A stretch of DNA of 64,000 bases from Methanobrevibacter sp. GTDB taxonomy: Archaea > Methanobacteriota > Methanobacteria > Methanobacteriales > Methanobacteriaceae. The notes beneath the pieces are model-generated. The model saw only the letters and a program-made list of their open reading frames with translations. It made no database searches and was not told the DNA's origin. Numbering within the stretch: the first letter of the stretch is position 1; each line of letters starts with the position of its first letter. The stretch is from assembly GCF_017539065.1 (NCBI RefSeq), contig NZ_JAFYHP010000012.1, positions 1 through 64,000 of the forward strand, read 5' to 3'. Both the position numbers and the translations under genes were made by a program. Shown piece by piece: positions 7,143 through 21,974 of the stretch.

Positions 7143-7206
7143 TAATACCTTGATTAGTATTACTAATATATTCATTTTTAGCTTTTTTGTAATACTTCTT
7201 GTATTA
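7143..7206 (+). promoter_or_regulatory. Palindromic operator cluster upstream of the second DUF3344 gene
   Basis: ATTAGTATTACTAAT at 7153-7167 is a perfect 15-base palindrome around a central T. TAATAC at 7143-7148 pairs with its GTATTA. A second inverted pair, TAATAC (7190-7195) and GTATTA (7201-7206), has a 5-base spacer. The palindrome overlaps a TATA-like TAATATATT at 7164-7172, which would suit a repressor. The same AGTATTACT core occurs twice upstream of the CobN-like gene. Confidence 0.5.
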
Positions 7207-7238
7207 TTGGTTTTTATAAATTTAAATAAGGAGATAAA

Positions 7239-10200
7239 ATGAAAAGAAAGTATTTAATTTGTTTAATAACTTTAATTTTCATCATTGCTGTTTCTATTAG
7301 TTCGGTTTCAGCAGAAGATAGTGATATTTCAAATGTTACTGCTGTATCTGATGAGATCGATGTTGATACGGATGAATCAGCAGATAGAACTATTAATGAT
7401 GTAAGTAATTTTCAAACTGTAGATAGTGGTAATGTCTCTGGGGGAGTTGATATTGCTGAGGATAATCATTTATTTACAACATATTCTTCATTTACATATG
7501 ATGTTCCATCAAATGCCACTATTAAAAAGGCATATTTGCATGCTAATGTTTATTCAGGCAGTGCTCAGCCAACATATGCTGCGAATGCCGAAATATATAT
7601 GAACGGTAATTTATTTAGAGAAGAAAATTTAGTTTGTACTCAGGGCTCTACTGATGGTACTGTGTATACTATTAATGCAAACATAACAAAAGTCTACTCT
7701 GATTATGATATGAGGTATGATATAACAGACACAATCAGTGGATTAAATGGTACAACATTAACTTTTGAAATTGGGACTTCCCCTATTAGTGGATATAGTT
7801 TTGATGGTAGAATTAAATGGTTTGCATTAGTTGTTGCTTATGATGATGGGGATGACGATATCATTTATTACTGGATTAAATCAGGTCAGGCATGGTTTAA
7901 TCAACCAGCCACTACCACTTTTGAAACATCCTCTATTTCAAATCCGAAAAATGCTAATTTGAGAAATGTTATTCTTTCAAGTTCAAATCCTGCATTTACA
8001 ATAAATGGTTGCAGTACAATTGCGAATAATACTGCTTCTGGAGGTTACTATAAATGTAATGAATGGTATGATATTTCAAACTATATGCCTGGCAGTTCCA
8101 ATACAGTTTTAGGATGGGTTCCTGGTAGTGGTTATTATGGTTTTTCCATGAAAACAGTTTTAGGTGTTTTAACTCTTGAAGAAGAACAAATTCCTGCAAA
8201 ACAATGTAATGATTTATTGGGAAGTTGTGATTTAAGTGAAGTATTGTCTGTCAATTCTGAAGAAATCTTAGCTGATCCTGATGTAAATGTAATAACTTCT
8301 GGTAATGAAAGTTATGATTGGTCTTACAATACTACTGTTAAGGGAGATATAAATATCTTCGTAGCAACTATGCCAAACAATAATTATAATATTAAGGAAA
8401 ACTATAATAATACATCAATAACTATAAAGTTAAATGATGATGAAACAATAACTGAATCTTATCTTTTCTTACCTATTGTTACTCGAAATACAAAATTTGT
8501 TGATAATATATATAATAATACTATTCTATTCAATGGACATAACATCAAAGACAACTTAATGTACGTTTATACTGCTCCTACTCTTGTAAATAGTAATATG
8601 CCGGAAAGTTTAATGATATATAATATTACTGGTTTGATAAAAGCTAATGAAAATAATGAGTTATATATAGAGAATTCTGGCACTGGTATAGCTGCCACAA
8701 ATAGACTTCATGGAGAATATATTATTACTTTATACCAGATACCTGGCGCACCCCAAAAAAATGTTTATTTCGGTAATGGTGCAAATTTTTTAAAACCTAC
8801 CGGAGTTAATAAAGGTGAAAGTGAGGTAAATGTTCCATTGGATAATGTTGTTGATGCTAAATATTATTTATTTGCAAGGGACTCTAGTTGTAATATTATT
8901 AATGTAGAATTTAATAATAATACATTTGATGCATTCCCTGGTATCAGTAATTTTCAAAACACATGTTATTTTGAAACTGATGTAACTGAAATAATTAAAG
9001 AATCAAATAATATAACCCTTATAGCAAAAAAAACTGGTACTAATGAAAATCAGTTTTATAAACTTTTAACTCAATTTATTGTTACAACAACAGGCGAATT
9101 GGATGTGGAAGTTACAAATATTGCAACTGAATATACAAATACTGCTTATGCTGGTACCAATAATGTAATAACTGCCACAGTTGATTCTACTATCCCAATT
9201 GGTTCTAATAATAATTTCACTGTTAAATTATTGGCAGACGGTCAGATAGTTAATGAAAGTGCTGTTGATTTAACCAAGGGAAGTTCAACTATTGTTTTAA
9301 CTGATCCTACAATCAGACCTGTTGATGAATTTACTGTTTATGCTGCTGATGTCACTAACAAAAAAGTTGTTTATACAGTTGAGATTTATGATGGTGATAA
9401 ATTAATATCAACTAAAAATATCACAGTTCCTATCAGATATAATGGTTATTTAAGTAAAGATTATGCTTATCCTACTGGTGATGAACCTTACACTTTAAAC
9501 ACTACCGTTTCCGGCGGTGTTTTAGTCGATATCACTGAAAGTGCATATATTAGTACTGGAATTAATAATAGAACTGATAACTTTACTTTAACTTTACCTG
9601 GAAATTCAACATTTGTCAATGGTCTTTTATATGTTCCATATACTTCTGATTTCACTCCTGCAGGTTATCCTGTATTTACCATGACCTTCAATGGAGCAGA
9701 TATTTCAGACAAAATCGTTGGAAAATACAGGGATAAAACTAATCTAGGTACTAGTGATTATGGTAAAAAATACTATGGTGTTCTTATTTATGATGTGTCC
9801 GGTTTAATTAAAGATGGAAACAACACTCTTGTTTTAATCAAAGCTAATGGAACCAATGTTGCAGTTTATCCTACCATATTAATTGGATTATACAACACTA
9901 CTAACAGTACAGTTCTAAGCGATATTTACATATTAAATGGTGCTGATCAATTATCTAAAAGTAGCTATAATAAAGCCGGCAGATTAGTGAATGTTACAAA
10001 TAAAGTAGATTTAGATGCTGGAAAAATGCAGAATGCTTATTGGTATGTATTTGAATCTGGAGGAACTTCCGGAAGAGGGGACTTAATATTCAATGATAAA
10101 CTTTACAGCAATGTTTGGAACGGTACAGACTACAATCTTGTTCAATATTATGTTGCAGATGTATCCGATTTAATAAAAGATTCCAATATTGTTAGTTTTG

Positions 10201-11039
10201 TTGCTACTGGAAGTGGAATAACTGCGTTACAACAAATATTCGTTGTTGAGAATGCTTTGTTTGATTTGAATTTACCTGCAGAAATCACCACTGGTGAAAC
10301 CTCAAGTTTCACAATGGATTTACCGAGCGATGCTAAAGGTTATGTTTTATTGGAAGTTGATGGAAATAAATTATTCTCTGAAGTTACCAATGGTACCGCT
10401 ACATTTAACATTCCTAGTTTAACCGCTGGTGACAATATAGTTAAATGCACATATTTAGGGGATGACAAATATAAACCAATGACTGTGAATTCTATTATTC
10501 ATGTATTGGCTAAACCTGTTTTAACAGCAAAAGATGTTACTATGCTTTATACCAGTAATCAGTATTACTCTGTTAAAGTAACTCAGGACGGTAAAGCATT
10601 AGCAGGTAAAGCTGTCACATTCACTGTTAACGGTAAAGTTATTACTGCAAACACTGATAAAAATGGTGTTGCTAAGGTTAAACTTAGTTTAAATCCGGGC
10701 AAATACACTGTCAGTGCATCTTACGGCGGCATTAAAGTAACCAATAATGTCAAAGTTAACAGCATCATAAAAGCTTCCAACAAAAAAGTCAAAAAATCTG
10801 CTAAAAAACTCAAAATTAAAGTTTCCCTTAAAAAAGTAGACGGAAAATTCCTCAAAGGCAAACCCCTTAAACTTAAAATTAACGGAAAAACTTTAAAAGC
10901 TAAAACCAATAAAAAAGGTGTAGCAACATTCACCATTAAGAAAAACATTCTTAAAAAACTTAAAGCAGGCAAAAAATACACTTACAAAGTCACATACAGT
11001 AAAGACACAGTAAGTAAAAAATTAACAGTAAAAAAATAG
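7239..11039 (+). CDS. Giant secreted DUF3344 surface protein with repeated beta modules
   Basis: A 1,266-residue protein with a clear signal peptide (MKRKYLICLITLIFIIAVSISSVSA). Residues about 55-305 are a DUF3344 domain closely similar to that of the preceding protein (SGGVDIAED, NVYSGSAQPTYA, DGRIKWFALV). Residues about 350-620 and 745-1005 hold further related beta modules with recurrent YVFNG, ITNGAD and GLIKD-type segments, separated by Ig-like linkers that repeat an ATEYTNTAYAGTNNVIT motif. The last 174 residues are a lysine-rich tail shared almost exactly with the next protein. AAGGAG precedes the ATG. A terminator overlaps the stop. Ligand unknown; many Asn-X-Ser/Thr sites suggest heavy N-glycosylation. 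Confidence 0.85.
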   Translation: MKRKYLICLITLIFIIAVSISSVSAEDSDISNVTAVSDEIDVDTDESADRTINDVSNFQTVDSGNVSGGVDIAEDNHLFTTYSSFTYDVPSNATIKKAYLHANVYSGSAQPTYAANAEIYMNGNLFREENLVCTQGSTDGTVYTINANITKVYSDYDMRYDITDTISGLNGTTLTFEIGTSPISGYSFDGRIKWFALVVAYDDGDDDIIYYWIKSGQAWFNQPATTTFETSSISNPKNANLRNVILSSSNPAFTINGCSTIANNTASGGYYKCNEWYDISNYMPGSSNTVLGWVPGSGYYGFSMKTVLGVLTLEEEQIPAKQCNDLLGSCDLSEVLSVNSEEILADPDVNVITSGNESYDWSYNTTVKGDINIFVATMPNNNYNIKENYNNTSITIKLNDDETITESYLFLPIVTRNTKFVDNIYNNTILFNGHNIKDNLMYVYTAPTLVNSNMPESLMIYNITGLIKANENNELYIENSGTGIAATNRLHGEYIITLYQIPGAPQKNVYFGNGANFLKPTGVNKGESEVNVPLDNVVDAKYYLFARDSSCNIINVEFNNNTFDAFPGISNFQNTCYFETDVTEIIKESNNITLIAKKTGTNENQFYKLLTQFIVTTTGELDVEVTNIATEYTNTAYAGTNNVITATVDSTIPIGSNNNFTVKLLADGQIVNESAVDLTKGSSTIVLTDPTIRPVDEFTVYAADVTNKKVVYTVEIYDGDKLISTKNITVPIRYNGYLSKDYAYPTGDEPYTLNTTVSGGVLVDITESAYISTGINNRTDNFTLTLPGNSTFVNGLLYVPYTSDFTPAGYPVFTMTFNGADISDKIVGKYRDKTNLGTSDYGKKYYGVLIYDVSGLIKDGNNTLVLIKANGTNVAVYPTILIGLYNTTNSTVLSDIYILNGADQLSKSSYNKAGRLVNVTNKVDLDAGKMQNAYWYVFESGGTSGRGDLIFNDKLYSNVWNGTDYNLVQYYVADVSDLIKDSNIVSFVATGSGITALQQIFVVENALFDLNLPAEITTGETSSFTMDLPSDAKGYVLLEVDGNKLFSEVTNGTATFNIPSLTAGDNIVKCTYLGDDKYKPMTVNSIIHVLAKPVLTAKDVTMLYTSNQYYSVKVTQDGKALAGKAVTFTVNGKVITANTDKNGVAKVKLSLNPGKYTVSASYGGIKVTNNVKVNSIIKASNKKVKKSAKKLKIKVSLKKVDGKFLKGKPLKLKINGKTLKAKTNKKGVATFTIKKNILKKLKAGKKYTYKVTYSKDTVSKKLTVKK
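10518..11039 (+). repeat. Tandem-gene 3' repeat, copy 1
   Basis: This 522-base stretch encodes the lysine-rich C-terminal tail of the second DUF3344 protein. It aligns without gaps to 13681-14202 at the end of the next gene. Most differences are single third-codon changes, so the copies look recently duplicated or kept alike by gene conversion. Confidence 0.85.
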
Positions 11040-11074
11040 AGATTGAATAATATCTCTATTTTTAATTTTTTTTT
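11036..11074 (+). terminator. Hairpin terminator overlapping the stop codon
   Basis: ATAGAGAT (11036-11043) pairs with ATCTCTAT (11052-11059) and is followed by a T-rich run. The TAG stop lies in the left arm. The same design recurs after the next gene. Confidence 0.7.
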
Positions 11075-11100
11075 AAAATTGTTTGAAGGAGGTTATTTTA

Positions 11101-14100
11101 ATGAAAAAATATTCTCTTTTATTGATTTTCATATTTTTCATGATGATTTCTCTTAGTTGCGTTGTGGCTCAGGATTCATTAAATACTACTGATAGTTTTC
11201 AAAATATTGATGATATGGCAGTAACTGAAGAGATAGATAATTCAAAAGATTACATTAGTTTATCCGAAAATGATAATTCCTCACTCAATTCTAATTCTAT
11301 AACCGATGATGTTTGCCTATCAGATGAGCCCTCTACTAATACATTAAGTTCAGATTTATCTAATGAAAAACAAACTCAGGACTCAACAGTCTCCGTTAGC
11401 AAGATAAGTACAGAATATCCTGCTGACTATATCTGTTTTCCGGGAACATTTAATATATTGACAGCAACAATCAGATCTGATGTTGAAGGTAATTTTACTG
11501 TTAAGCTGTTGGCTGATAATAATGTAGTTGATTGTGTGAATGTTCACTTAACTGCAGGCAGTCAAAGTTTCAAATTAAATGATTCTACAATCAGGCCAAT
11601 TGATGAAACTACTGTAAGGGGTGCAGATAATAAAGAAGTAAATTATACTGTTCAGGTTTATCAAGTGGATAAATTTATCACAGAAAATTCAATAATTGCC
11701 AATGTTATGTATAACGGATATTTGGGCAAAGATTATGCATATCCAAAATCTGAATCATGGGACTGGTCTTACACTACATCAGTTAAGGGTGATGTGGTTT
11801 TCTATAATTTTAAAAATACCTATAGCGGAGCATCTACAGGTCCAAGAAGCGAATCATTTAATCTCAGATTAAGTGGGGGAAAAATAACAGAATCATATGT
11901 ATATATTTTGTATAACTGGGATCACACTCCGGATGATTTGAATAATCGTCTTCCACTATGGGATCTAACTTTCAATGGTTTAGATATTTCAGATAGGCTC
12001 CTTTGGTCTTCTATTGATTTAGCCAATATGGGCACTACATGGGGTGCATTAAAATATGGTTTGCTGGGATATAATGTTACAGATTTAGTTAGGCCAGATA
12101 GAACAAATACAATTGTTGTAAATAGAGGATGTTCAACTGCATTATATTCAAGTTCCGTTGTGACATTGTATGAAAAACCTGGATCATCTTATAAAAATGT
12201 CTACTTTGGAAATGGTATGGATTTATTATATAATGACTATAATGATGGAAAAAGACCAATTGAAGCAGATAGCAAAGTAGATGTTTCAATGGATAAAGTC
12301 ACTGAAGCAATGTGGTATGTTTTTGCAGGCAGTGCTCATCAACGCGATGCTGATTTGGTATTCAATAATCATACTTTTGCAAATGTTTATGATGGTGATG
12401 CTGAAAGTATGGATATGTTCGAAGCAAATGTGACTTCAATTATTAAGGAATCAAATAATATTAGTTTTATTGCAACTACCACTACTGTTGTTGCATTTCA
12501 TCAAATTATTGTTACAACATTAGAAGATACTAATGTTACCGTTTCAAAAATTGCTACAGAATATTCAAATACTGCATATGCAGGCACTAATAATGTAATT
12601 ACAGCATCAATAAATACTAATTATAAAGATAATTACATTGTTAAATTATTGGCAGATGGAAATGTCATCTCCACTCAAACCATGAAATTAAATGATGCAT
12701 TAAATGAAATCAGTTTAATTGACCCGACCGTTAGAACTATTGATGAATCCACAGTAGCTGGTGCAATAAATAATGATGTAACCTATACGGTTGAAGTTTA
12801 TGATGGGAATATTTTACTTGCAAAAAGCAATATTACTGTTCCTATCAGATATAACGGTTATTTAAACAAAAATTTCGCTTATCCGACTGATGATTTAAAA
12901 TTCAATTTGAATACTGCTGTAACAGGAAATGTTTTAATTGATGTTTTAGGTACTGATGCATATTTAGGCAGTGATGAGCTTGCAGCCAATAAATCTTATG
13001 AGTTTACTTTAAACTTGCCAAAAAATTCTGTTTTTGTAAATGGCCTGTTGTATATTTCATATAATTATGATAAAACTCCGGCAGGTTTCCCGGTTTTCAA
13101 CATGACTTTTAACAATGTTGATATTTCTAACCGTATCGTCGGTAAATATAGGGATAAGACAAATTTAGGTTCTTATGGGTTATCCTGGTATGGAGTTATA
13201 ATTTATGATGTTTCAGATTTAATTAAGGATGGATCCAATTCTTTAGAATTAATTAAAGTGAACGGTACTTATGCTGCGGTTTATCCTCCGGCATTAATTG
13301 GATTATATAATGAAAGTGGAGGCAATTTAAAAAATATCTATATTACAAACGGCGCTGATATATTATCCAAAACAAGTTATAACAAAGCAGATAGGCCTGT
13401 AAACATCACCGAGAATATTAATGTGGATATCGATAAAATGAAATCTGCCAAATGGTATGTTTTTGCAGCTAATGCTAAAGATAATTTGGCTGATTTAACT
13501 TTTAATGGTAATGTCTATAGTAATGTTTGGAGTGGCGATAATGCCCATTCTCTTCAGTATTTCAGTAGTGATGTAACCAGTCTGATTAAAGGTTCAAATA
13601 CTGTTGGCTTTGTTTCTACCGGAGGAGGAGTTTTAGCTCTACAACAGATTTTAGTTGTAGAAAAATCAAAACCTAAAGTAGTTTTAACAGCAAAGGATGT
13701 TACTATGCTTTATACCAGTAATCAGTATTACTCTGTTAAAGTTACTCAGGATGGTAAAGCATTAGCTGGTAAAACTGTTAAATTTACTGTTAATGGTAAA
13801 GCTGTTTCTGCAAATACTGATAAAAATGGTGTTGCTAAGGTTAAACTTAGTTTAAACCCTGGCAAATACACTGTCAGTGCATCTTACGATGGCATTAAAG
13901 TAACAAATAATGTCAAAGTTAACAGCATTTTAAAAGCTTCCAACAAAAAAGTCAAAAAATCTGCTAAAAAACTTGTAATTAAAGTTTCCCTTAATAAAGT
14001 TGATGGAAAATACCTCAAAGGCAAAACCCTTAAACTCAAACTTAATGGAAAAACTTTAAAAGCTAAAACCAATAAAAAAGGTGTAGCAACATTCACCATT

Positions 14101-14202
14101 AAGAAAAACATCCTTAAAAAACTTAAAGCAGGCAAAAAATACACTTACAAAGTCACATACAGTAAAGACACAGTAAGTAAAAAATTAACAGTAAAAAAAT
14201 AG
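11101..14202 (+). CDS. Secreted DUF3344-like repeat surface protein
   Basis: About 1,033 residues. The ATG follows AAGGAGG at a good distance and opens a signal peptide (MKKYSLLLIFIFFMMISLSCVVA). An upstream in-frame TTG overlaps the ribosome site and is rejected. Residues 25-95 are acidic and Ser/Asn-rich. Then come two beta-linker plus module pairs (modules about 220-470 and 600-855) like the second half of the preceding protein, sharing YPADYI/ATEYSNTAYAGTNN-type linkers, FNGLDISDR, YGLLGYNVTDL and ITNGADILSK segments. The lysine-rich tail from about 860 is nearly identical to that of the neighbour. It lacks the first, most typical DUF3344 unit. Probably a paralogue from tandem duplication, co-transcribed or readthrough-linked with the preceding gene. 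Confidence 0.83.
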   Translation: MKKYSLLLIFIFFMMISLSCVVAQDSLNTTDSFQNIDDMAVTEEIDNSKDYISLSENDNSSLNSNSITDDVCLSDEPSTNTLSSDLSNEKQTQDSTVSVSKISTEYPADYICFPGTFNILTATIRSDVEGNFTVKLLADNNVVDCVNVHLTAGSQSFKLNDSTIRPIDETTVRGADNKEVNYTVQVYQVDKFITENSIIANVMYNGYLGKDYAYPKSESWDWSYTTSVKGDVVFYNFKNTYSGASTGPRSESFNLRLSGGKITESYVYILYNWDHTPDDLNNRLPLWDLTFNGLDISDRLLWSSIDLANMGTTWGALKYGLLGYNVTDLVRPDRTNTIVVNRGCSTALYSSSVVTLYEKPGSSYKNVYFGNGMDLLYNDYNDGKRPIEADSKVDVSMDKVTEAMWYVFAGSAHQRDADLVFNNHTFANVYDGDAESMDMFEANVTSIIKESNNISFIATTTTVVAFHQIIVTTLEDTNVTVSKIATEYSNTAYAGTNNVITASINTNYKDNYIVKLLADGNVISTQTMKLNDALNEISLIDPTVRTIDESTVAGAINNDVTYTVEVYDGNILLAKSNITVPIRYNGYLNKNFAYPTDDLKFNLNTAVTGNVLIDVLGTDAYLGSDELAANKSYEFTLNLPKNSVFVNGLLYISYNYDKTPAGFPVFNMTFNNVDISNRIVGKYRDKTNLGSYGLSWYGVIIYDVSDLIKDGSNSLELIKVNGTYAAVYPPALIGLYNESGGNLKNIYITNGADILSKTSYNKADRPVNITENINVDIDKMKSAKWYVFAANAKDNLADLTFNGNVYSNVWSGDNAHSLQYFSSDVTSLIKGSNTVGFVSTGGGVLALQQILVVEKSKPKVVLTAKDVTMLYTSNQYYSVKVTQDGKALAGKTVKFTVNGKAVSANTDKNGVAKVKLSLNPGKYTVSASYDGIKVTNNVKVNSILKASNKKVKKSAKKLVIKVSLNKVDGKYLKGKTLKLKLNGKTLKAKTNKKGVATFTIKKNILKKLKAGKKYTYKVTYSKDTVSKKLTVKK
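13681..14202 (+). repeat. Tandem-gene 3' repeat, copy 2
   Basis: Second copy of the 522-base repeat at 10518-11039. It has the same length and reading frame, ends at the same stop codon, and is followed by the same kind of AGAGA/TCTCT hairpin. Confidence 0.85.
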
Positions 14203-14229: not shown

Positions 14230-14274
14230 AAAAGTATTACTTTTTTTATTTTTTTTCAAAAAAAAGTATTACTT
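14230..14274 (+). promoter_or_regulatory. Two AGTATTACT palindromes upstream of the CobN-like gene
   Basis: AAAAGTATTACTTTT at 14230-14244 is a perfect 15-base palindrome, and AAGTATTACTT at 14264-14274 a perfect 11-base one, about 33 bases apart. Both lie upstream of TATA-like stretches (AATATTTATTAA from 14282; ATATATTATAT from 14306). The shared core with 7153-7167 suggests a dimeric regulator common to the surface proteins and this gene. Confidence 0.5.
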
Positions 14275-14367
14275 GTTCAAAAATATTTATTAATTGTTAT
14301 AATCATATATTATATTGATAATAGATGATTGTGATTTATTATCATGCATAATTTGGAGACTAATATT

Positions 14368-17300
14368 ATGCAGAAATTTGGCATAAAGAAATGTTCTATA
14401 TTATTATTCACTTTGATTGTTCTATTGTCATTTACAATGCTTGCAATTTCGGCCGAATCACTTAATCAAACAGATTGCATTGCAATTGAAGATTCGTCTG
14501 ACATATGCGTTGAAAATGATGTTAGCAAATTGGCTGTTGAAAATAAAAATTCAACAGTTCAAGTTGATGATAATTTAGATGTTTCAAAGGACGAAAGTGA
14601 TAATTCTAATGATGATCTTGCTTTAGATAGTTATACTGAGGTAAGTGATAATTCTAATGATATTTTATCTTCTCAATCAGGTAAAAAAACCATATTCTTT
14701 ATTAGTGATAATTCCGGAACAAATATTCTGGATACTGCCGCTATAGAGTTGCTTGATAATGGTTTGGATGTAAATTTGGTTATTCGAAGCGGGGAGCAAA
14801 TCAAGGATATGCCTGAAGATGAGTTATATGCATTAATGGATAATTCTGATGCATTCATTGGCGAGTGGATCAGTACTGATGTAGATGCTGTATTGACAAG
14901 TCTCATTGCTAACTATCCTGCTTTAGCACAAAAAGACATATTTTTAATTCTCGAACCTCCTTCCGGAAAATTAACTTCAACATCAACTTCCATTGACTTA
15001 TTGAAGAAAAATGTTATTAATGGAGTAAAGATATTCGACGGATTTACCAATGAGGAAATAGTCACATACTTTACACTCACTAAAAGGGGAACTGCATTTG
15101 AAGATATCATTGAATTTTATGGAACTGACTTCGGAAGCAGATTCAACTCCATATTTAATAACATCGTCTTATATAAGGATATTAACAATAAGGATAACCT
15201 TAAAAGCCAAATCCTTTATATATTAAATAATCTTGGATTGGATGTGGAATATAGCGAACCAACAAGTGACGGAACAAGATTATATGGTATTTACAGGGAC
15301 AAATGGTATTCCCTGGAAGATTATAAGGCAGAATTCTTTGACAGTTCAAAAACTCGTATTGCTTGTGTTTTGGAAAGTACAATGTATGTGAATTCAAATG
15401 CACTGCAGCCATGTTATGAAATTGTAGAGCAATTGGAATCTAAAGGATTCAATGTAATTCCGGTATTTGCAGCTGGTGCTACTAAAGAGCAGCTCATGGT
15501 AATGGTTGAAACTTTCACAACAGCGTCAACTTATCAGGAATTTTTAGCAGATCCTTCAAAATATGATGTAAATCTCGATGCAATTGTATCTATGGTTGCA
15601 TATGGTGTTGGCGGTGAAACATTTGCAAACACTACAGATTTCTTTGAAGATGCAGGGGTTCCGGTTTTCAGAGCAGTTCATTCTGATTATGTATCAAATG
15701 CTCAGTGGGAGTTAAGTTCAACAGGTTTGACAACCACTATGAGTGATAAATGGTGGCATGTATCAATTGCCGAAGCTCAGGGTATTATTGATGCCACCTT
15801 CATTGGGGGGGCCGCTAAAACATTATCTCAGAGAACTGGTGCTTTAATCACCGGTTATTCACCTCATCATGAAAATATCAATTTATTGACCGATAGAATT
15901 TCCTCATGGGTGGATTTACGTTATACGTTAAATGATGATAAAGTTTTATCCATCATTTACTATAATTATCCACCTGGAAAGCAGAACATCGGTTCCAGTT
16001 ACCTGGACTCAATAACAAGTATCTATAATATGCTTTACGCTTTAAAAGATGCAGGATATAATGTTGGTGAATTGCCTAAAAATGTATCTGAACTTGAAAA
16101 TGAGATGATTAGATGCGGTATTAATGTAGCTAATTGGGCTCCGGGCGAGCTTCAGAAATTAGCTAACCAAACCGGCATCACATTATTGCCGGTTGACGAA
16201 TATGTGAACTGGTATAATACTTTGGATGATATTGTAAAAATACAGGTTTCAGAAGGTCCTGTTGCATATATTGCAGAGTTAACAAAAAGGGCTGTAGAGC
16301 TTCAATATACTGTAACAATTGGTGATACAATTGATGAGTGGTATAATCAGATAGTGGCTCTGCTTCCTGAAAACAATACTGTTATGGCAACAGAAGCTTT
16401 AAAAAATATTGTAGCAAGTTTAAAACAATATGCATCAACCGGTTCATACAGTGATTATCAGATATTTGAACAGTATTACGCGGAGTTCAAATCCCTTAAT
16501 ATAGCAGGTTTAAACGGATGGGGTGAAGCCCCAGGCAATATCATGATGGTGAACCGTAATGGAACCGATTACTTTGTAATTCCAGGTTTAACATTCGGTA
16601 ACATATTTGTGGCCCCCGAACCTCAAAGGGGATGGGAGTCAGATGTTGAAAACCTTTATCACTGTACTGCTGTTGCACCGACTCATCAGTACCTTGCCGC
16701 TTACTATTATATGCAAAGCCGATATTCAAATGCAATGATATTTGTAGGAAGACACGGAACACACGAATGGCTGCCAGGAAAAGAGATTCTTTTATCTTAC
16801 AATGATTATGGATCTATTGTGGTGGGAGATGTTCCTCAACTATATTTCTACATTACTGATGGTTTAGGTGAAGCAATTCAAGCTAAAAGAAGAGGATTTG
16901 CCGTGATGATTTCACACTTGACCTCTCCAATGGCATACACTCAATTATATGGTAATCTCACAGCTTCTGCAAAAATCATTGAAGAGTACGAAAATACTTT
17001 TGATGAAACTATGAAAAAAGTATTGGCAGAGGAATTGCGAGGTATTGTAATTGACAATTTGTATTACGGTAGTTTTGGCCTATCAGAAAATGAGACCAAG
17101 GCGCTTAGTGATGCTGATTTGGTCAGTTATACAAACACATTCCTTAAAGAAATGCAAAATACTTTGTACCCATTGGGTCTTCATGCAATCGGTGAGATGT
17201 GGAGTGAAAAGGATGTTGCAAACACGGTATCTGCAATGATATCACGTGATTTTGACCTGCCGGGAAATAAGGGAACTACAAATCTTTTTAAAGTATTGTC

Positions 17301-19524
17301 AAATAACTACTATTCAAAGGATTATGAAGATTTAACCGCATTTGAAAGAGAATCTATCCTAAATAAATCATATGACATTTGCAAGGCTTTAATATATTGG
17401 GATGCCGATACAGTTTACAACACTTTAAATATTGACAGTAATAATTTATTGGAATGCCTAAATCAGGCTAAAAAATACATCAATCTGATTAATGAAAGTA
17501 TTGCCAATGAATTAAACTCAATGCTTAAGGGATTGGAAGGCAAATATATTCCAGTTGGTTATGGAGGCGATTTGATTGCAACACCGGCAATATTGCCGAC
17601 AGGTTACAACATGTTCCAGGACCAGTCTGCTGAACTTCCAACAATGGATGCCTATGAATATGCAAAAACTCTTGCACTCTTGACACTGGCAGACCTTGAT
17701 GATGAAACAGAAAAAATCATTATGGGTATTTGGTGTGTAGAAACTGCAAGAGACGATGGTGCATTGGTATCCACTGTATTATATTTGCTTGGTATGCAGG
17801 TAAAATGGCACGCTTCAGCATCTGCAGGGGTAGATGATGAAGGATATGTCACCGGTATGAAAACAGAATCATATCCTGAGGTTGTTCCTCTTGACGATTT
17901 GGTAAGGCCTGAAGGATGGGCTAAAAAAAGGATTGACGTTTCAGTCATTACAAGCGGTTTATTCAGGGACTTATACTCATCTCAAGCAGTTCTAATGGAT
18001 AATGCATTTAGAATGACATTGGCCTGTTCATATAATACAATTAAAAATAATAGGACTCTTATTAAAACAAAAGAGGGAGCCAAACTATTGGAAGCTCTTG
18101 AATTCGTAATGGAAGGAATCAACTATCAGGGAATAGGTTCTGAATCTTTAGAAGATAATTATGTTGCCAAACATTGGGTTGAAGACTGTTTGTACTATTT
18201 AAGTATCGGCTATAATGCCACTTATGCTGGTGAATGTGCGATTACAAGAATATTTGCACCTCCAAATGGAGATTACGGTGCAGGGATATCAAAACTCGTT
18301 CAGATGTCCTGGACCTGGAATGATACCTCCGAACTTGCTGATTTCTATCTTGGAAGAATGGGTAATATGTACTCCAAAAACTATTGGGGAGATACAAATC
18401 CGATAGTGTTCTTTAGAGCATTATCCAATGCGGATACAATTGTAGCAAGTCGTAATACCAACCAGTATGGAGTTTTAGACAATGATGACTTCTTCGATTA
18501 CTGGGGAGGTCTTTCAATGACTCTCGAGCATATCTCAGGAAAAACTCCAAAAATGAATATTTTAATGTATGCAGATAAGACTCATCCATATGTAAAATCT
18601 CTTGAAGAAGTGATGAATGCTGAAATTACAGCAAGGTATGATAATCCTGAATGGATTAAAGGTATGATGAATGAAGGTTACAGCGGTGCCAGATATATTT
18701 CAAACAAATTTGTCACCAACTTGTTCGGTTGGCAGGTTACCCGTCCTTCAGCAGTATCAGATGAATTGTGGAAAAAAGTATATGATACCTACTATGGAGA
18801 CAAATATGGAATAGGCGTTAACGAATGGTTAAAATCAGGTAACAATGCATATTCATTAATATCCATGTCCGGAACAATGCTTACAGCAATTAAGGAAGGT
18901 TATTGGAATGCAGATGATGCAACAATAAGGGATATTGCAAATACCTGGGCACAGGCAACCGTACAAAACGGTGTGGCATGCTGTGACTGCAGTTGTGGTA
19001 ATGTGGCAATGATGCAATGGGCAATAACATATGTTAATCCAGACATTCTTGCAAAATTACTGCCAAAACTCTATGAGGCAACCCAAAACCCGGCATTTCA
19101 AACTAATGCTTCACCTGACACTCCACAAAGTGATGCTGATGCTTCAAATCCAAATCCTCAAAAGGGATCAGATGCAACATCTACCGTTGAGACAAACTCA
19201 TCTTCCACATCAAGCACCAAACAATCCTCAACTGGAAGTACTTCTTCCGGTAATGGAGTAGGTGTAGATGGAAGCCAGCCTAGTACAGGCATGTCTCAAG
19301 GCACTAGTGGTGCAGGAGAAAGTGCATCATCACAGGATGGTAAAAAAGCAGCTGAAATCAATCCGGTTGTTGCAAAATCATCATCCGACACCGGTTTATC
19401 AATCCTTGCAGTGCTTGCAGTCATTGGACTGGTAATTATCATAGGATTAGGTTACATTAGAAATAAAGACGAAGAAAAAGAGGAAGTCGTAGACTTCGAC
19501 TATAATTACAATTTTAATGAATAA
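14368..19524 (+). CDS. Secreted, membrane-anchored CobN-like chelatase homologue (HmuS-like)
   Basis: About 1,718 residues. The second ATG is chosen: it follows TTGGAG and opens a signal peptide (MQKFGIKKCSILLFTLIVLL). The long middle part is a CobN/BchH-type large chelatase subunit: GRHGTHEWLPGKE near residue 794, then the RPEGWAKKRIDVSVITSGLFRD-type region near 1190 and the C-terminal CobN helix region. A CCDCSC cysteine cluster sits near residue 1537. A Ser/Thr/Gly-rich linker (about 1575-1670), one membrane helix (about 1676-1697) and an acidic tail follow, so the chelatase domain faces outward. No AAA+ partner (CobS/CobT, ChlI/ChlD) is nearby. The order with the next three genes equals hmuSTUV. 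Likely acts on a tetrapyrrole outside the membrane; substrate unknown. Confidence 0.85.
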   Translation: MQKFGIKKCSILLFTLIVLLSFTMLAISAESLNQTDCIAIEDSSDICVENDVSKLAVENKNSTVQVDDNLDVSKDESDNSNDDLALDSYTEVSDNSNDILSSQSGKKTIFFISDNSGTNILDTAAIELLDNGLDVNLVIRSGEQIKDMPEDELYALMDNSDAFIGEWISTDVDAVLTSLIANYPALAQKDIFLILEPPSGKLTSTSTSIDLLKKNVINGVKIFDGFTNEEIVTYFTLTKRGTAFEDIIEFYGTDFGSRFNSIFNNIVLYKDINNKDNLKSQILYILNNLGLDVEYSEPTSDGTRLYGIYRDKWYSLEDYKAEFFDSSKTRIACVLESTMYVNSNALQPCYEIVEQLESKGFNVIPVFAAGATKEQLMVMVETFTTASTYQEFLADPSKYDVNLDAIVSMVAYGVGGETFANTTDFFEDAGVPVFRAVHSDYVSNAQWELSSTGLTTTMSDKWWHVSIAEAQGIIDATFIGGAAKTLSQRTGALITGYSPHHENINLLTDRISSWVDLRYTLNDDKVLSIIYYNYPPGKQNIGSSYLDSITSIYNMLYALKDAGYNVGELPKNVSELENEMIRCGINVANWAPGELQKLANQTGITLLPVDEYVNWYNTLDDIVKIQVSEGPVAYIAELTKRAVELQYTVTIGDTIDEWYNQIVALLPENNTVMATEALKNIVASLKQYASTGSYSDYQIFEQYYAEFKSLNIAGLNGWGEAPGNIMMVNRNGTDYFVIPGLTFGNIFVAPEPQRGWESDVENLYHCTAVAPTHQYLAAYYYMQSRYSNAMIFVGRHGTHEWLPGKEILLSYNDYGSIVVGDVPQLYFYITDGLGEAIQAKRRGFAVMISHLTSPMAYTQLYGNLTASAKIIEEYENTFDETMKKVLAEELRGIVIDNLYYGSFGLSENETKALSDADLVSYTNTFLKEMQNTLYPLGLHAIGEMWSEKDVANTVSAMISRDFDLPGNKGTTNLFKVLSNNYYSKDYEDLTAFERESILNKSYDICKALIYWDADTVYNTLNIDSNNLLECLNQAKKYINLINESIANELNSMLKGLEGKYIPVGYGGDLIATPAILPTGYNMFQDQSAELPTMDAYEYAKTLALLTLADLDDETEKIIMGIWCVETARDDGALVSTVLYLLGMQVKWHASASAGVDDEGYVTGMKTESYPEVVPLDDLVRPEGWAKKRIDVSVITSGLFRDLYSSQAVLMDNAFRMTLACSYNTIKNNRTLIKTKEGAKLLEALEFVMEGINYQGIGSESLEDNYVAKHWVEDCLYYLSIGYNATYAGECAITRIFAPPNGDYGAGISKLVQMSWTWNDTSELADFYLGRMGNMYSKNYWGDTNPIVFFRALSNADTIVASRNTNQYGVLDNDDFFDYWGGLSMTLEHISGKTPKMNILMYADKTHPYVKSLEEVMNAEITARYDNPEWIKGMMNEGYSGARYISNKFVTNLFGWQVTRPSAVSDELWKKVYDTYYGDKYGIGVNEWLKSGNNAYSLISMSGTMLTAIKEGYWNADDATIRDIANTWAQATVQNGVACCDCSCGNVAMMQWAITYVNPDILAKLLPKLYEATQNPAFQTNASPDTPQSDADASNPNPQKGSDATSTVETNSSSTSSTKQSSTGSTSSGNGVGVDGSQPSTGMSQGTSGAGESASSQDGKKAAEINPVVAKSSSDTGLSILAVLAVIGLVIIIGLGYIRNKDEEKEEVVDFDYNYNFNE

Positions 19525-19558
19525 AGGTTTTTTATAAACCTTTTTTATTATTTTTTTA
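19523..19558 (+). terminator. Hairpin terminator after the CobN-like gene
   Basis: AAAGGTTT (19523-19530) pairs with AAACCTTT (19536-19543), followed by a T-rich tract. Confidence 0.75.
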
Positions 19559-19560
19559 AG

Positions 19561-19598
19561 CTTAAATAAAATATTTTCGAGGAAATGTTTTATTTAAG
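19561..19598 (+). promoter_or_regulatory. Long intercistronic inverted repeat before the DUF2162 gene
   Basis: CTTAAATAAAATATTT (19561-19576) pairs with AAATGTTTTATTTAAG (19583-19598) over 16 positions with one T-G wobble and a 6-base loop. It sits between the chelatase terminator and the DUF2162 start at 19625. It may be an operator, an RNA processing site or an mRNA-stabilising leader. Confidence 0.5.
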
Positions 19599-19624
19599 TT
19601 TAAAATTATTAATAGGTGAAAATT

Positions 19625-20335
19625 ATGGATGTTATTTCAACATTATGGCAATTAGGAATATTGGCGGCGGTTTTAATATTCGGAATAAAACTTGGCCTTG
19701 CAACGGGTCTTGCCAATTTTTCCAAAAAGTATTTGCTTGGTGTATCAATAGGTTATGGAGGAGGAGTCCTAATACTGTGTTGGATTGCCTCTTTTTTTAC
19801 GCAGGAAATTACAGAATGGATTTATGCTTATAACTTTGAATTTTTCCTGATTATGGCAGCCATAATGATTGCAGCGGGAATATTCACAATAAGGGAATAC
19901 AAAGTTTATGAAAGAAATACTGCAGCAGCAACTGCAATGGCAGTTATTGCACCATGCCCGTGCTGTTTTGGATCAATCTTAGTTAGTGTACTATTGGTTG
20001 CACCGACAATCGGTTTGGGTGCGGTGAACTTGAGTGTATATGTTGCACTTGCACTTGTGGCAACAATAGTAATCACATATTTCCTGTCAAAATCATTTGT
20101 TAAAGTATTTTTAGACAAGCCATATCCAATCATATTAGGCAATTTTATGTTTTTTTTAGGATTGTATTATTTGATATCAGCACTATTCCTACCATACATT
20201 ACTGATATTTTAATAAATACAATGAATCCAATTACAATAGAATCAACTGATAATTTAGCGATATTTGTAATATTATTGGTTATAGTTATTGTGATTGGAA
20301 TGTTAATATCAAGAAATAGGAGTCATTTATCATAG
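19625..20335 (+). CDS. DUF2162-type multi-spanning membrane transporter (HmuT-like)
   Basis: About 236 residues, mostly hydrophobic, with six or seven membrane helices (first LGILAAVLIFGIKLGLATG near residue 10, last about 212-230). It resembles the DUF2162 'predicted transporter' family, distantly related to cytochrome-biogenesis/LysE-type permeases. A CPCC motif near residue 115 could bind metal or act in redox chemistry. AGGTGA precedes the ATG; an upstream in-frame GTG overlaps this ribosome site and is rejected. Its stop abuts the next gene's ribosome site, so it is cotranslated with the MotA-like and DUF2149 genes. It is the likely channel for whatever the CobN-like protein releases. 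The substrate is inferred from context only. Confidence 0.75.
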   Translation: MDVISTLWQLGILAAVLIFGIKLGLATGLANFSKKYLLGVSIGYGGGVLILCWIASFFTQEITEWIYAYNFEFFLIMAAIMIAAGIFTIREYKVYERNTAAATAMAVIAPCPCCFGSILVSVLLVAPTIGLGAVNLSVYVALALVATIVITYFLSKSFVKVFLDKPYPIILGNFMFFLGLYYLISALFLPYITDILINTMNPITIESTDNLAIFVILLVIVIVIGMLISRNRSHLS

Positions 20336-20344
20336 GTGAATTAC

Positions 20345-20992
20345 ATGGTTACAACAGTTCCGGGAAGTGAATTTTTAACATCAGCATTGAATGCAATCTC
20401 ACAGGGTTTACAAATTCCTGTAGTTATCTTTTTATTATTATTTGCACTAGTTGCAATATTGATGCTTGGAGGTCTCATATCGGAGTATACTTCACGAATG
20501 AAAGTATCGGTGGATGTAATTGAAAAGCTGGTTTTCAATATCAATAACGCTCCATCAATTGATGATGTGAAAAAAATTGTTGAAGGCGCAAAAATTCCAA
20601 AATCACAAAAATTAATATTGATGAAAGTAATAAGGGCACAATCTCTTACAAAAGAATCAAGGGAAGCGCTTGCACGTAAATTAATTGAATCAGAAGAAAA
20701 CGGATTCACCAAATCCCTTGGAAGAACAGATATTATTACACGTATTGGGCCTACATTGGGGTTAATGGGAACATTGATTCCAATGGGACCGGGTCTTGCA
20801 GCATTGGGAGCAGGAGACATTAATACATTGGCAAATTCGATTATTGTAGCTTTTGATACAACTGTAGTGGGTATCGGGTCTGGTGCTCTAGCATATGTCG
20901 TTGCTAAAATCAGACGCAGATGGTATGAGGAATACCTATCCAACTTGGATACTTTAGTGGATTGTGTTTTAGACAAATTAAATCAAGGGTGA
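20345..20992 (+). CDS. MotA/TolQ/ExbB-family proton channel subunit (HmuU-like)
   Basis: About 215 residues with three membrane helices: about 22-42 (IPVVIFLLLFALVAILML), about 135-160 around GPTLGLMGTLIPMGPGLAALGAG, and about 160-190 (ANSIIVAFDTTVVGIGSGALAYVV). The last two carry the pattern typical of MotA/TolQ/ExbB proton channels, which turn the ion gradient into mechanical work with an ExbD/TolR-type partner. The ATG lies after AGGTGA. The gene overlaps its neighbours' control signals, which indicates one operon. There is no outer membrane here, so an ExbB-like pair would have to energise a wall or surface component such as the anchored CobN-like protein. Confidence 0.88.
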   Translation: MVTTVPGSEFLTSALNAISQGLQIPVVIFLLLFALVAILMLGGLISEYTSRMKVSVDVIEKLVFNINNAPSIDDVKKIVEGAKIPKSQKLILMKVIRAQSLTKESREALARKLIESEENGFTKSLGRTDIITRIGPTLGLMGTLIPMGPGLAALGAGDINTLANSIIVAFDTTVVGIGSGALAYVVAKIRRRWYEEYLSNLDTLVDCVLDKLNQG

Positions 20993-20996
20993 TTTG

Positions 20997-21320
20997 ATGG
21001 TAAGGCAAAAAGGTAAGAAACGTTTCACTGAAAGTGAAGAAGACCCTATGGCAGGGACATCCAACCTTGTTGATGCAATGCTTGTAATTGCAGTTGGTCT
21101 ATTGATTTTTGTAGTAATCAGCTGGAATATGCAGAGTGTGGTTTTCCAGGAAAATCAGGACCAGCCCCTTCAGGAAGCACAACAGACTACTGAAGTTACA
21201 GAAGGCCATCAACTCAATGAAACTCCAGATACTTCCAACAGTTCAGGTCAAGGTTATATGGAAATGGGAAAAGTATATAAGGACCCTTCAACGGGAAAAC
21301 TAATTATGGTTGAAGAGTAA
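20997..21320 (+). CDS. DUF2149 ExbD-like single-pass protein (HmuV-like)
   Basis: A 107-residue protein with a cytoplasmic basic N-terminus, one membrane helix (about residues 27-46, DAMLVIAVGLLIFVVIS) and a short outer part rich in Gln/Thr/Ser ending in DPSTGKLIMVEE. The NLVDAML start of the helix places an Asp where ExbD/TolR proteins carry their proton-path aspartate. This fits DUF2149, the usual partner of the MotA-like protein in CobN-like operons. The ATG follows GGGTGA, just after the stop of the MotA-like gene. The external part is much shorter than in ExbD, so the coupling mechanism may differ. Confidence 0.8.
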   Translation: MVRQKGKKRFTESEEDPMAGTSNLVDAMLVIAVGLLIFVVISWNMQSVVFQENQDQPLQEAQQTTEVTEGHQLNETPDTSNSSGQGYMEMGKVYKDPSTGKLIMVEE

Positions 21321-21386: not shown

Positions 21387-21974
21387 ATGAAAGTTTTTGG
21401 AATCTGTGCAAGTCCGAGAAACGATACAACTCATTACGTATTGGCCCATGCTTTGGACATACTGGAAAGCCATAATTTTGAAACTGAAATGTTTACTTGC
21501 CAGGCAAAGGATATTAAGCCTTGTATGCATTGCGATTACTGTTTGGAAAATAAGAAATGCATCATACAGGATGATATGCAAGAAATCTATGAAAATCTTC
21601 AGCAAGCCGATGGTATAATATTGGCCACTCCGATACAGTCAGGATCAATTTCATCAAATCTTTCAGCAATAATGGACAGAACAAGAGCTCTTGAAGCTAT
21701 TGACTATAATCTTTTAAGAGGAAAAATCGGAATTAGCATTGCAGTCGGCGGGGACCGTACCGGGGGTCAGGATTTCGCTCATCTGGCAAACATCACCTAT
21801 TTTATGATACACGGCATAATCCCGGTCAGCGGAGGGCCTTTCGGTTCCAATTTAGGCGCATCATTCTGGTCTCAGGACTCTCTGGATAAAATAAAGGAAG
21901 ATACATATGGTATGGAGTCTTTGAATAGGACTTTGATAGAATTTGAAAATTTCTTAAATAAGTATATATATTAA
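21387..21974 (+). CDS. Iron-sulfur flavoprotein (NADPH-dependent FMN reductase family)
   Basis: A 195-residue flavodoxin-fold protein. The start MKVFGICASPRN is the FMN-phosphate loop of the family. Cys46, Cys49, Cys52 and Cys58 form the CX2CX2CX5C pattern of methanogen iron-sulfur flavoproteins (Isf), which hold one [4Fe-4S] cluster and FMN and pass electrons from ferredoxin to acceptors such as oxygen or peroxide. ATPIQSGSISSNL is the second FMN contact loop. No clear ribosome site is seen and the ATG is close to AT-rich promoter DNA, so it may be leaderless. A link to the preceding chelatase operon (a reductase for metal release) is possible but unproven. Confidence 0.85.
   Translation: MKVFGICASPRNDTTHYVLAHALDILESHNFETEMFTCQAKDIKPCMHCDYCLENKKCIIQDDMQEIYENLQQADGIILATPIQSGSISSNLSAIMDRTRALEAIDYNLLRGKIGISIAVGGDRTGGQDFAHLANITYFMIHGIIPVSGGPFGSNLGASFWSQDSLDKIKEDTYGMESLNRTLIEFENFLNKYIY

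Follow-up and report, generated by a model that had tools for sequence, protein, structure and literature searches.

Four consecutive genes of a methanogenic archaeon probably (the likelihood can be put at roughly 70%) constitute a nickel acquisition system induced by nickel starvation, in which a membrane motor would drive a nickel de-chelatase at the cell surface. All four lie on the + strand among the open reading frames of a 64,000-nt window (the whole stretch of DNA analysed), which covers C9:1-64000 of a Methanobacteriaceae genome of 1.84 Mb (94% complete; G000), most of its named relatives being rumen Methanobrevibacter. The first gene (14344..19524, with the Met at 14368 as the likelier start) encodes CobN1, a secreted, membrane-anchored protein resembling class I chelatases (Pfam CobN-Mg_chel, PF02514, E=8.5e-225). 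It is followed by a DUF2162 membrane protein, a candidate metal (Ni/Co) permease (19616..20335; 1.1e-63), by a MotA/TolQ/ExbB-like channel subunit of the HmuU subfamily (20336..20992; MotA_ExbB, 9.4e-11) and by an ExbD-like DUF2149 protein of the HmuV family with a single TM segment (20994..21320; 3.5e-23). The Pfam matches and the ORF positions confirm the four types, in the order that a previous sequence-only reading had given them. The FMN_red gene located downstream (21387-21974) is not kept behind other cassettes and was not counted as part of this one, and an Rfam scan of the window returned tRNA only.

The gene order turned out to be kept across the Methanobacteriales. CobN is found in 71 and DUF2162 in 75 of up to 83 genomes of the family (at least 90% complete), and DUF2149 is present in 123 of 139 genomes. 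Considering the 76 named loci, which were fetched by DUF2162, CobN lies directly 5' of DUF2162 and on the same strand in 27, and MotA and DUF2149 then follow in 26 of these (the remaining one is cut at the contig end). One further locus has CobN on both sides of DUF2162, and several Methanosarcina/Methanosphaera loci show the order DUF2162-MotA-DUF2149-CobN. There is also a "free" second DUF2162-MotA-DUF2149 set, present on contig C29 of the host genome and in many relatives, and in the DUF2162 tree the CobN1-linked copies stand apart from the free ones (98-99% support). In another genome (G134 C4, locus L065), three successive CobN genes precede DUF2162-MotA-DUF2149, and the far end of the locus carries a CbiM gene. 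A DUF2162 search of plasmids gave no match, and no mention of DUF2162 was found in the literature searched.

The control of the cassette points to nickel. CobN1 is preceded by a paired palindromic operator (AGTATTACT at 14233-14241 and 14265-14273, i.e., 14233..14273, 32 bp apart and without strand), recognised by pattern search and by its conservation, since the form AGTAWTACT-N23/24-AGTAWTACT is found before CobN1 both in the window and in related Methanobrevibacter, with a spacing of usually 31-33 bp. A whole-genome pattern search returned nine operator pairs at six promoter regions, against none in the reversed control and none in 12 Markov simulations of 724 kb. The only promoter regions of the host genome that carry the pair are those of CobN1, of the divergent hmd/hmdC, of the cbiM of an ECF Ni/Co transporter, of two ABC operons (SBP_bac_5/NikBC/NikDE-type) and of a heavy-metal P-type ATPase; three pairs stand in tandem before the latter (C11:7324-7558). 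The site is absent from the other MotA/DUF2149 loci and from CobN2, the second secreted CobN of the host genome (C9:113089-117984). Hmd is a known nickel-limitation hydrogenase (PMC3087415, PMC12350162), and one NikR is encoded in the host genome. An operator shared with nickel-response genes is what a nickel-starvation (NikR-type) regulon would display, and this one, as a putative NikR site, points to such a regulon. Upstream of CobN1 (7156-14202), the window also encodes tandem DUF3344 surface proteins with near-identical C-termini, with a single AGTATTACT 83 bp before the first of their genes, and in two further loci (L135 and L160) the cassette is closely followed by an operator pair; neighbouring surface genes may therefore belong to the nickel regulon as well.

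Two genomes, G142 and G147, which we take to be Methanothermobacter marburgensis and M. thermautotrophicus, respectively, provide a link to proteomic data. Both contain FmdE-CobN-DUF2162-MotA-DUF2149, with CobN as three ORFs in the former (L205:10867-15795) and as one intact frame of 1708 aa in the latter. The intact protein shares 41% identity with the CobN1 of the window over 1367 aa (CobN2 only 25%) and is its apparent orthologue. The CobN-like MTBMA_c10550-10570, equivalent to MTH673, has been filed under cobalamin biosynthesis (PMC3087415). Three ORFs in one genome and a single one in the other fit that equivalence so that, counting back, MTBMA_c10530 would be the orthologous MotA gene, provided that the presumed genome identities are right. 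According to PMC12350162, "CobN1" (that paper's label, which may refer to any CobN paralogue) and NikR1 of M. marburgensis occur at high levels only under nickel limitation, and the "transporter" MTBMA_c10530 is up together with Hmd, an induction that the paper gives without a function.

Genomic neighbourhoods elsewhere speak for nickel too. In sister DUF2162-MotA-DUF2149 cassettes, CbiM (E=1e-39 to 1e-40), an FmdE surface protein and two small secreted proteins are encoded directly before DUF2162. The cassette of Runella slithyformis (pRUNSL01) lies inside a hypABF...hypCDE nickel-hydrogenase operon and resembles the archaeal one in combining CobN, MotA and DUF2149 with nickel-related surroundings, although it includes a TBDR and a NicO/DsbD_2-like permease replaces DUF2162 in the third position. 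A point against nickel is that bacterial relatives have links to haem, corrinoid or zinc, so the substrate varies. For instance, PA1922-PA1925 of Pseudomonas aeruginosa, which form part of the Zur regulon (PMC4542158, PMC9431628), are by their description similar in that CobN-like, proton-channel and DUF2149 genes are induced by metal starvation, and different in their zinc control, their TBDR and the absence of DUF2162.

Could the metal be cobalt instead, with CobN1 removing it from, or loading it into, corrinoids at the surface, and with cross-regulation between both metals? Trichlorobacter encodes a true DUF2162 (E=1.5e-63) behind two cobalamin riboswitches, DUF2162 of Verrucomicrobiia loci is likewise found near such riboswitches, a Marinobacter relative lies within a BtuFCD/cob cluster, and both the CbiM partners of the sister cassettes and the Asp-Asp active-site motif that CobN1 has in common with CobN would agree with corrinoid salvage. 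The TBDR-DUF2162-MotA-(DUF2149)-CobN operons of Trichlorobacter lovleyi and Verrucomicrobiia indeed share with the archaeal cassette a CPxC-containing DUF2162, MotA and an Asp-Asp CobN, to which Trichlorobacter specifically adds DUF2149 (not detected in the Verrucomicrobiia loci examined) and the C-terminal Cys motif of CobN. Unlike it, they have the order T-U-V-S, outer-membrane receptors and corrinoid control. However, the operator of CobN1 also fronts Hmd/HmdC, a classical response to nickel limitation, and Nik-type ABC operons, and the Methanothermobacter proteome (PMC12350162) ties the proteins to nickel limitation. Corrinoid salvage is an unlikely alternative, and, to judge by the riboswitches, cobalt/corrinoid may rather be the bacterial analogue of the nickel substrate.

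CobN1 itself reads as a signal sequence, a low-complexity linker of ~100 residues, a chelatase domain, a C-terminal TM anchor (19393..19458, + strand, by hydropathy) and a charged tail. Signal sequence and anchor, both of which had been noticed beforehand and are borne out, would make the enzyme part face outwards and support the surface location that was proposed with them. The PF02514 profile of the class I chelatase superfamily is matched over the body domains, and the best match among solved structures (PDB) is HmuS 9d26 (E=1.1e-86), with CobN and ChlH ranking behind it. In a 39-protein tree (midpoint-rooted, inferred by a quick method and with long branches), CobN1 clusters with HmuS and with motor-linked bacterial CobN proteins (the corrinoid-linked one of Trichlorobacter, the nickel-linked one of Runella, that of the Marinobacter Btu cluster and others), and it separates from the CobN2 type as well as from cytosolic CobN/BchH (99 SH-aLRT). 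The proposed kinship with HmuS is thus supported both by the best PDB match and by the side of the tree. Another Methanobacteriaceae genome (L067:2504-6109, G133 C18) encodes a cytosolic protein of 1201 aa that resembles CobN/ChlH, has a DH motif (TDLDHYYEFLGG) and groups with BchH.

This kinship raises the question of whether CobN1 strips iron from haem (or another iron-porphyrin) at the surface, energised by U and V, as in the HmuSTUV system of Bacteroidota. HmuU and HmuV homologues do adjoin CobN1, according to profiles and alignments (HmuV matches PF09919 at 2e-34), and the S-x-U-V order is the same in Prevotella, Bacteroides and Aureibacter. The hallmarks of HmuS are the haem ligands Met79/His254 (HGR), the motif LSLDHxxEFMGG with His1209/Glu1212 and a Met-rich insert in domain IV (PMC12583661). 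In CobN1, by contrast, Ile176 and Ala419 align with Met79 and His254, LDNDDFFDYWGG takes the place of the LSLDHxxEFMGG motif in an alignment of 40 CobN/HmuS/BchH proteins, and the Met-rich insertion is absent (two Met in residues 938-1042, and no 60-aa window with more than six). Moreover, HmuT of three Bacteroidota gave no PF09930 match at E<=1. The earlier proposal of the four hmuS-T-U-V types in the same order therefore holds for three of them: MotA and DUF2149 are homologous to HmuU and HmuV, while the third cassette protein matches the DUF2162 profile and HmuT, unrelated to it by sequence, does not. With the operator belonging to a Ni-type regulon in addition, haem is not supported as the substrate, and its de-chelation is very improbable. 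Of the proposal that a tetrapyrrole is stripped or imported at the surface, the haem part falls away, and the operator regulon, the Methanothermobacter proteomics, the CbiM of sister cassettes and the hyp operon of Runella move the substrate to nickel.

To judge by these residues, CobN1 is not an HmuS member as defined in PMC12583661, though the layout of the module is HmuS-like; in that paper, archaeal HmuS homologues are left unexplained, and their species have no complete hmu operons. The similarities comprise a CobN-type chelatase anchored outside the inner membrane, the U and V homologues, the order and the lack of an ATPase partner. The differences, besides DUF2162 and the missing haem ligands, DH motif and Met-rich insert, are that the archaeal system has neither HmuY/HmuR nor an outer membrane, and that its control is of nickel type, that of hmu being iron. 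Most likely, the cassette is a variation on the HmuSTUV-like chelatase-motor module that serves nickel in place of haem.

Regarding the active site, the counterpart of the catalytic His538 of HmuS (whose H538A mutant is inactive; PMC12583661) is kept in the alignment as His804 of GRHGTHEW (16753..16755, + strand); because this G-x-H-G His is common to the whole superfamily, it is not diagnostic of HmuS. Asp1382 of LDNDDFFDYWGG (18487..18489, + strand) occupies a position that is His in HmuS and ChlH and Asp in the cobaltochelatase CobN. Towards the C-terminus, the extracellular CCDCSC (18979..18996, + strand) is, from sequence comparison, a candidate metal-relay or redox site. The motif CC(D/H)x(S/T)C is found in the extracellular CobN of archaea and Trichlorobacter, partly in Runella and in some HmuS (it is seen in Aureibacter, and 9d26 has CSGFVC), is absent from cytosolic CobN/ChlH and has been lost in the HmuS of Prevotella and B. 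finegoldii.

As a member of the CobN family, CobN1 might alternatively be a chelatase that inserts cobalt or nickel during the biosynthesis of B12 or F430, the role given to it in older annotation, and PMC3087415 names its Methanothermobacter orthologue as a possible F430 Ni chelatase. Cytosolic CobNST and ChlHID share with CobN1 the class I chelatase fold, and CobN also the Asp-Asp motif, but they are anabolic, cytosolic, driven by ATP through AAA+ partners and located on a separate side of the tree. CobN1 is placed outside the cell by its signal sequence and anchor, shares its operon with motor genes and scores far under the CobN equivalog cut-offs (452.6/822 bits for TIGR02257; 695.4/1619 for NF004645). 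As for a CobS/ChlI-type AAA+ partner, a TIGR02442 search of the 94% complete genome detected fragments only (best E=0.012; cut-off 779 bits), which bears out the lack of a chelatase ATPase that had been read from the sequence, and no CobST/ChlID partner was detected. Furthermore, nickel is inserted into the F430 precursor by CfbA, and anaerobic cobalt insertion is carried out by CbiX/CbiK-type enzymes. A biosynthetic role is hardly credible on these grounds.

Among the membrane partners, DUF2162 has a CPxC motif that does not vary across 37 sequences, which range from Verrucomicrobiia to Methanobrevibacter (CPCC at 19955-19966 in the window). Its AlphaFold model is a helical membrane protein (pLDDT 82) without a significant match to PDB folds. 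The CPxC, together with the C-terminal Cys motif of CobN, has suggested that DUF2162 might be a CcdA-like thiol-electron relay, against which stand the missing fold match and the loss of the Cys motif in some HmuS. MotA contains an ExbB-type LGLMGTLIPMGP segment that the alignment shares with HmuU, and DUF2149 a near-invariant Asp27 within its TM (21072-21074, by alignment). An ExbB-type profile with an acidic TM residue in the partner is the signature expected of a MotA/TolQ/ExbB plus ExbD-like motor, which the pair would thus form.

Sequence context indicates that such motors serve non-chelatase clients too. Two more MotA/DUF2149 pairs of the host genome (L044:2465-10251, C26; L046:7495-14738, C14) come after surface proteins of ~2000 aa with PKD, beta-propeller or beta-helix domains and a C-terminal TM helix. 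A third locus (L047:6596-11911, C6) has the order Peripla_BP_2 binding protein-FecCD-ATPase-FmdE-weak DUF2162-MotA-weak DUF2149, i.e., an archaeal motor pair beside a siderophore/B12-type ABC importer. CobN, FmdE and beta-propeller clients have in common a TonB-box-like tag near the membrane, [KGN]-x-Y-E-[VIML], which ends up 12-25 aa upstream of their final TM helix (the juxtamembrane variant preceding the helix of CobN1 is KKAAEINPV). The tag is also carried by two anchored proteins that have no motor next to them, so it was discarded as motor-specific and is suggestive only. Taken further, these loci and the Y-E-[VIL] shared by unrelated clients could mean that MotA/DUF2149 is a general surface motor and CobN1 just one client, with a mechanical role other than metal removal. 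The chelatase active-site His kept in CobN1, its nickel-type regulation and the two tagged proteins lacking a motor leave this a very small chance; its motor half is nonetheless compatible with the nickel explanation.

According to the nickel explanation, CobN1, anchored outside the membrane, would bind a nickel chelate and take the metal out of it, removal being the presumed direction. Ion flow through MotA/DUF2149 would power the release, replacing the AAA+ ATPase of cytosolic CobN/ChlH and acting on CobN1 via its C-terminal TM helix. The metal would then be handed over, perhaps via CCDCSC, to DUF2162 (CPxC) and/or to the NikMNQO-type ECF transporter of the same regulon. Since this family typically handles tetrapyrroles and the regulon is of nickel type, the natural and leading candidate substrate is a Ni-tetrapyrrole, for example F430 or debris of it; other nickel chelates and corrinoids are possible. 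In its most specific form, which is a tentative proposal, methanogens would recycle nickel from the F430 freed by dead methanogens, with CobN1 as a surface F430 de-nickelase driven directly by the ion gradient via MotA/DUF2149, and with interchangeable surface clients docking to the same motor through the TonB-box-like tag. Such a de-chelatase would draw its power from a membrane motor and not from ATP, and would do so in a cell that has no outer membrane.

Methyl-CoM reductase depends on the nickel tetrapyrrole F430, which is why nickel limits methane production, and little is known about how methanogens acquire this metal. If the nickel explanation is true, the many archaeal "CobN" proteins would gain a function, and MotA/DUF2149 would be shown to power chelatases outside the cell where there is no TonB/outer-membrane system.
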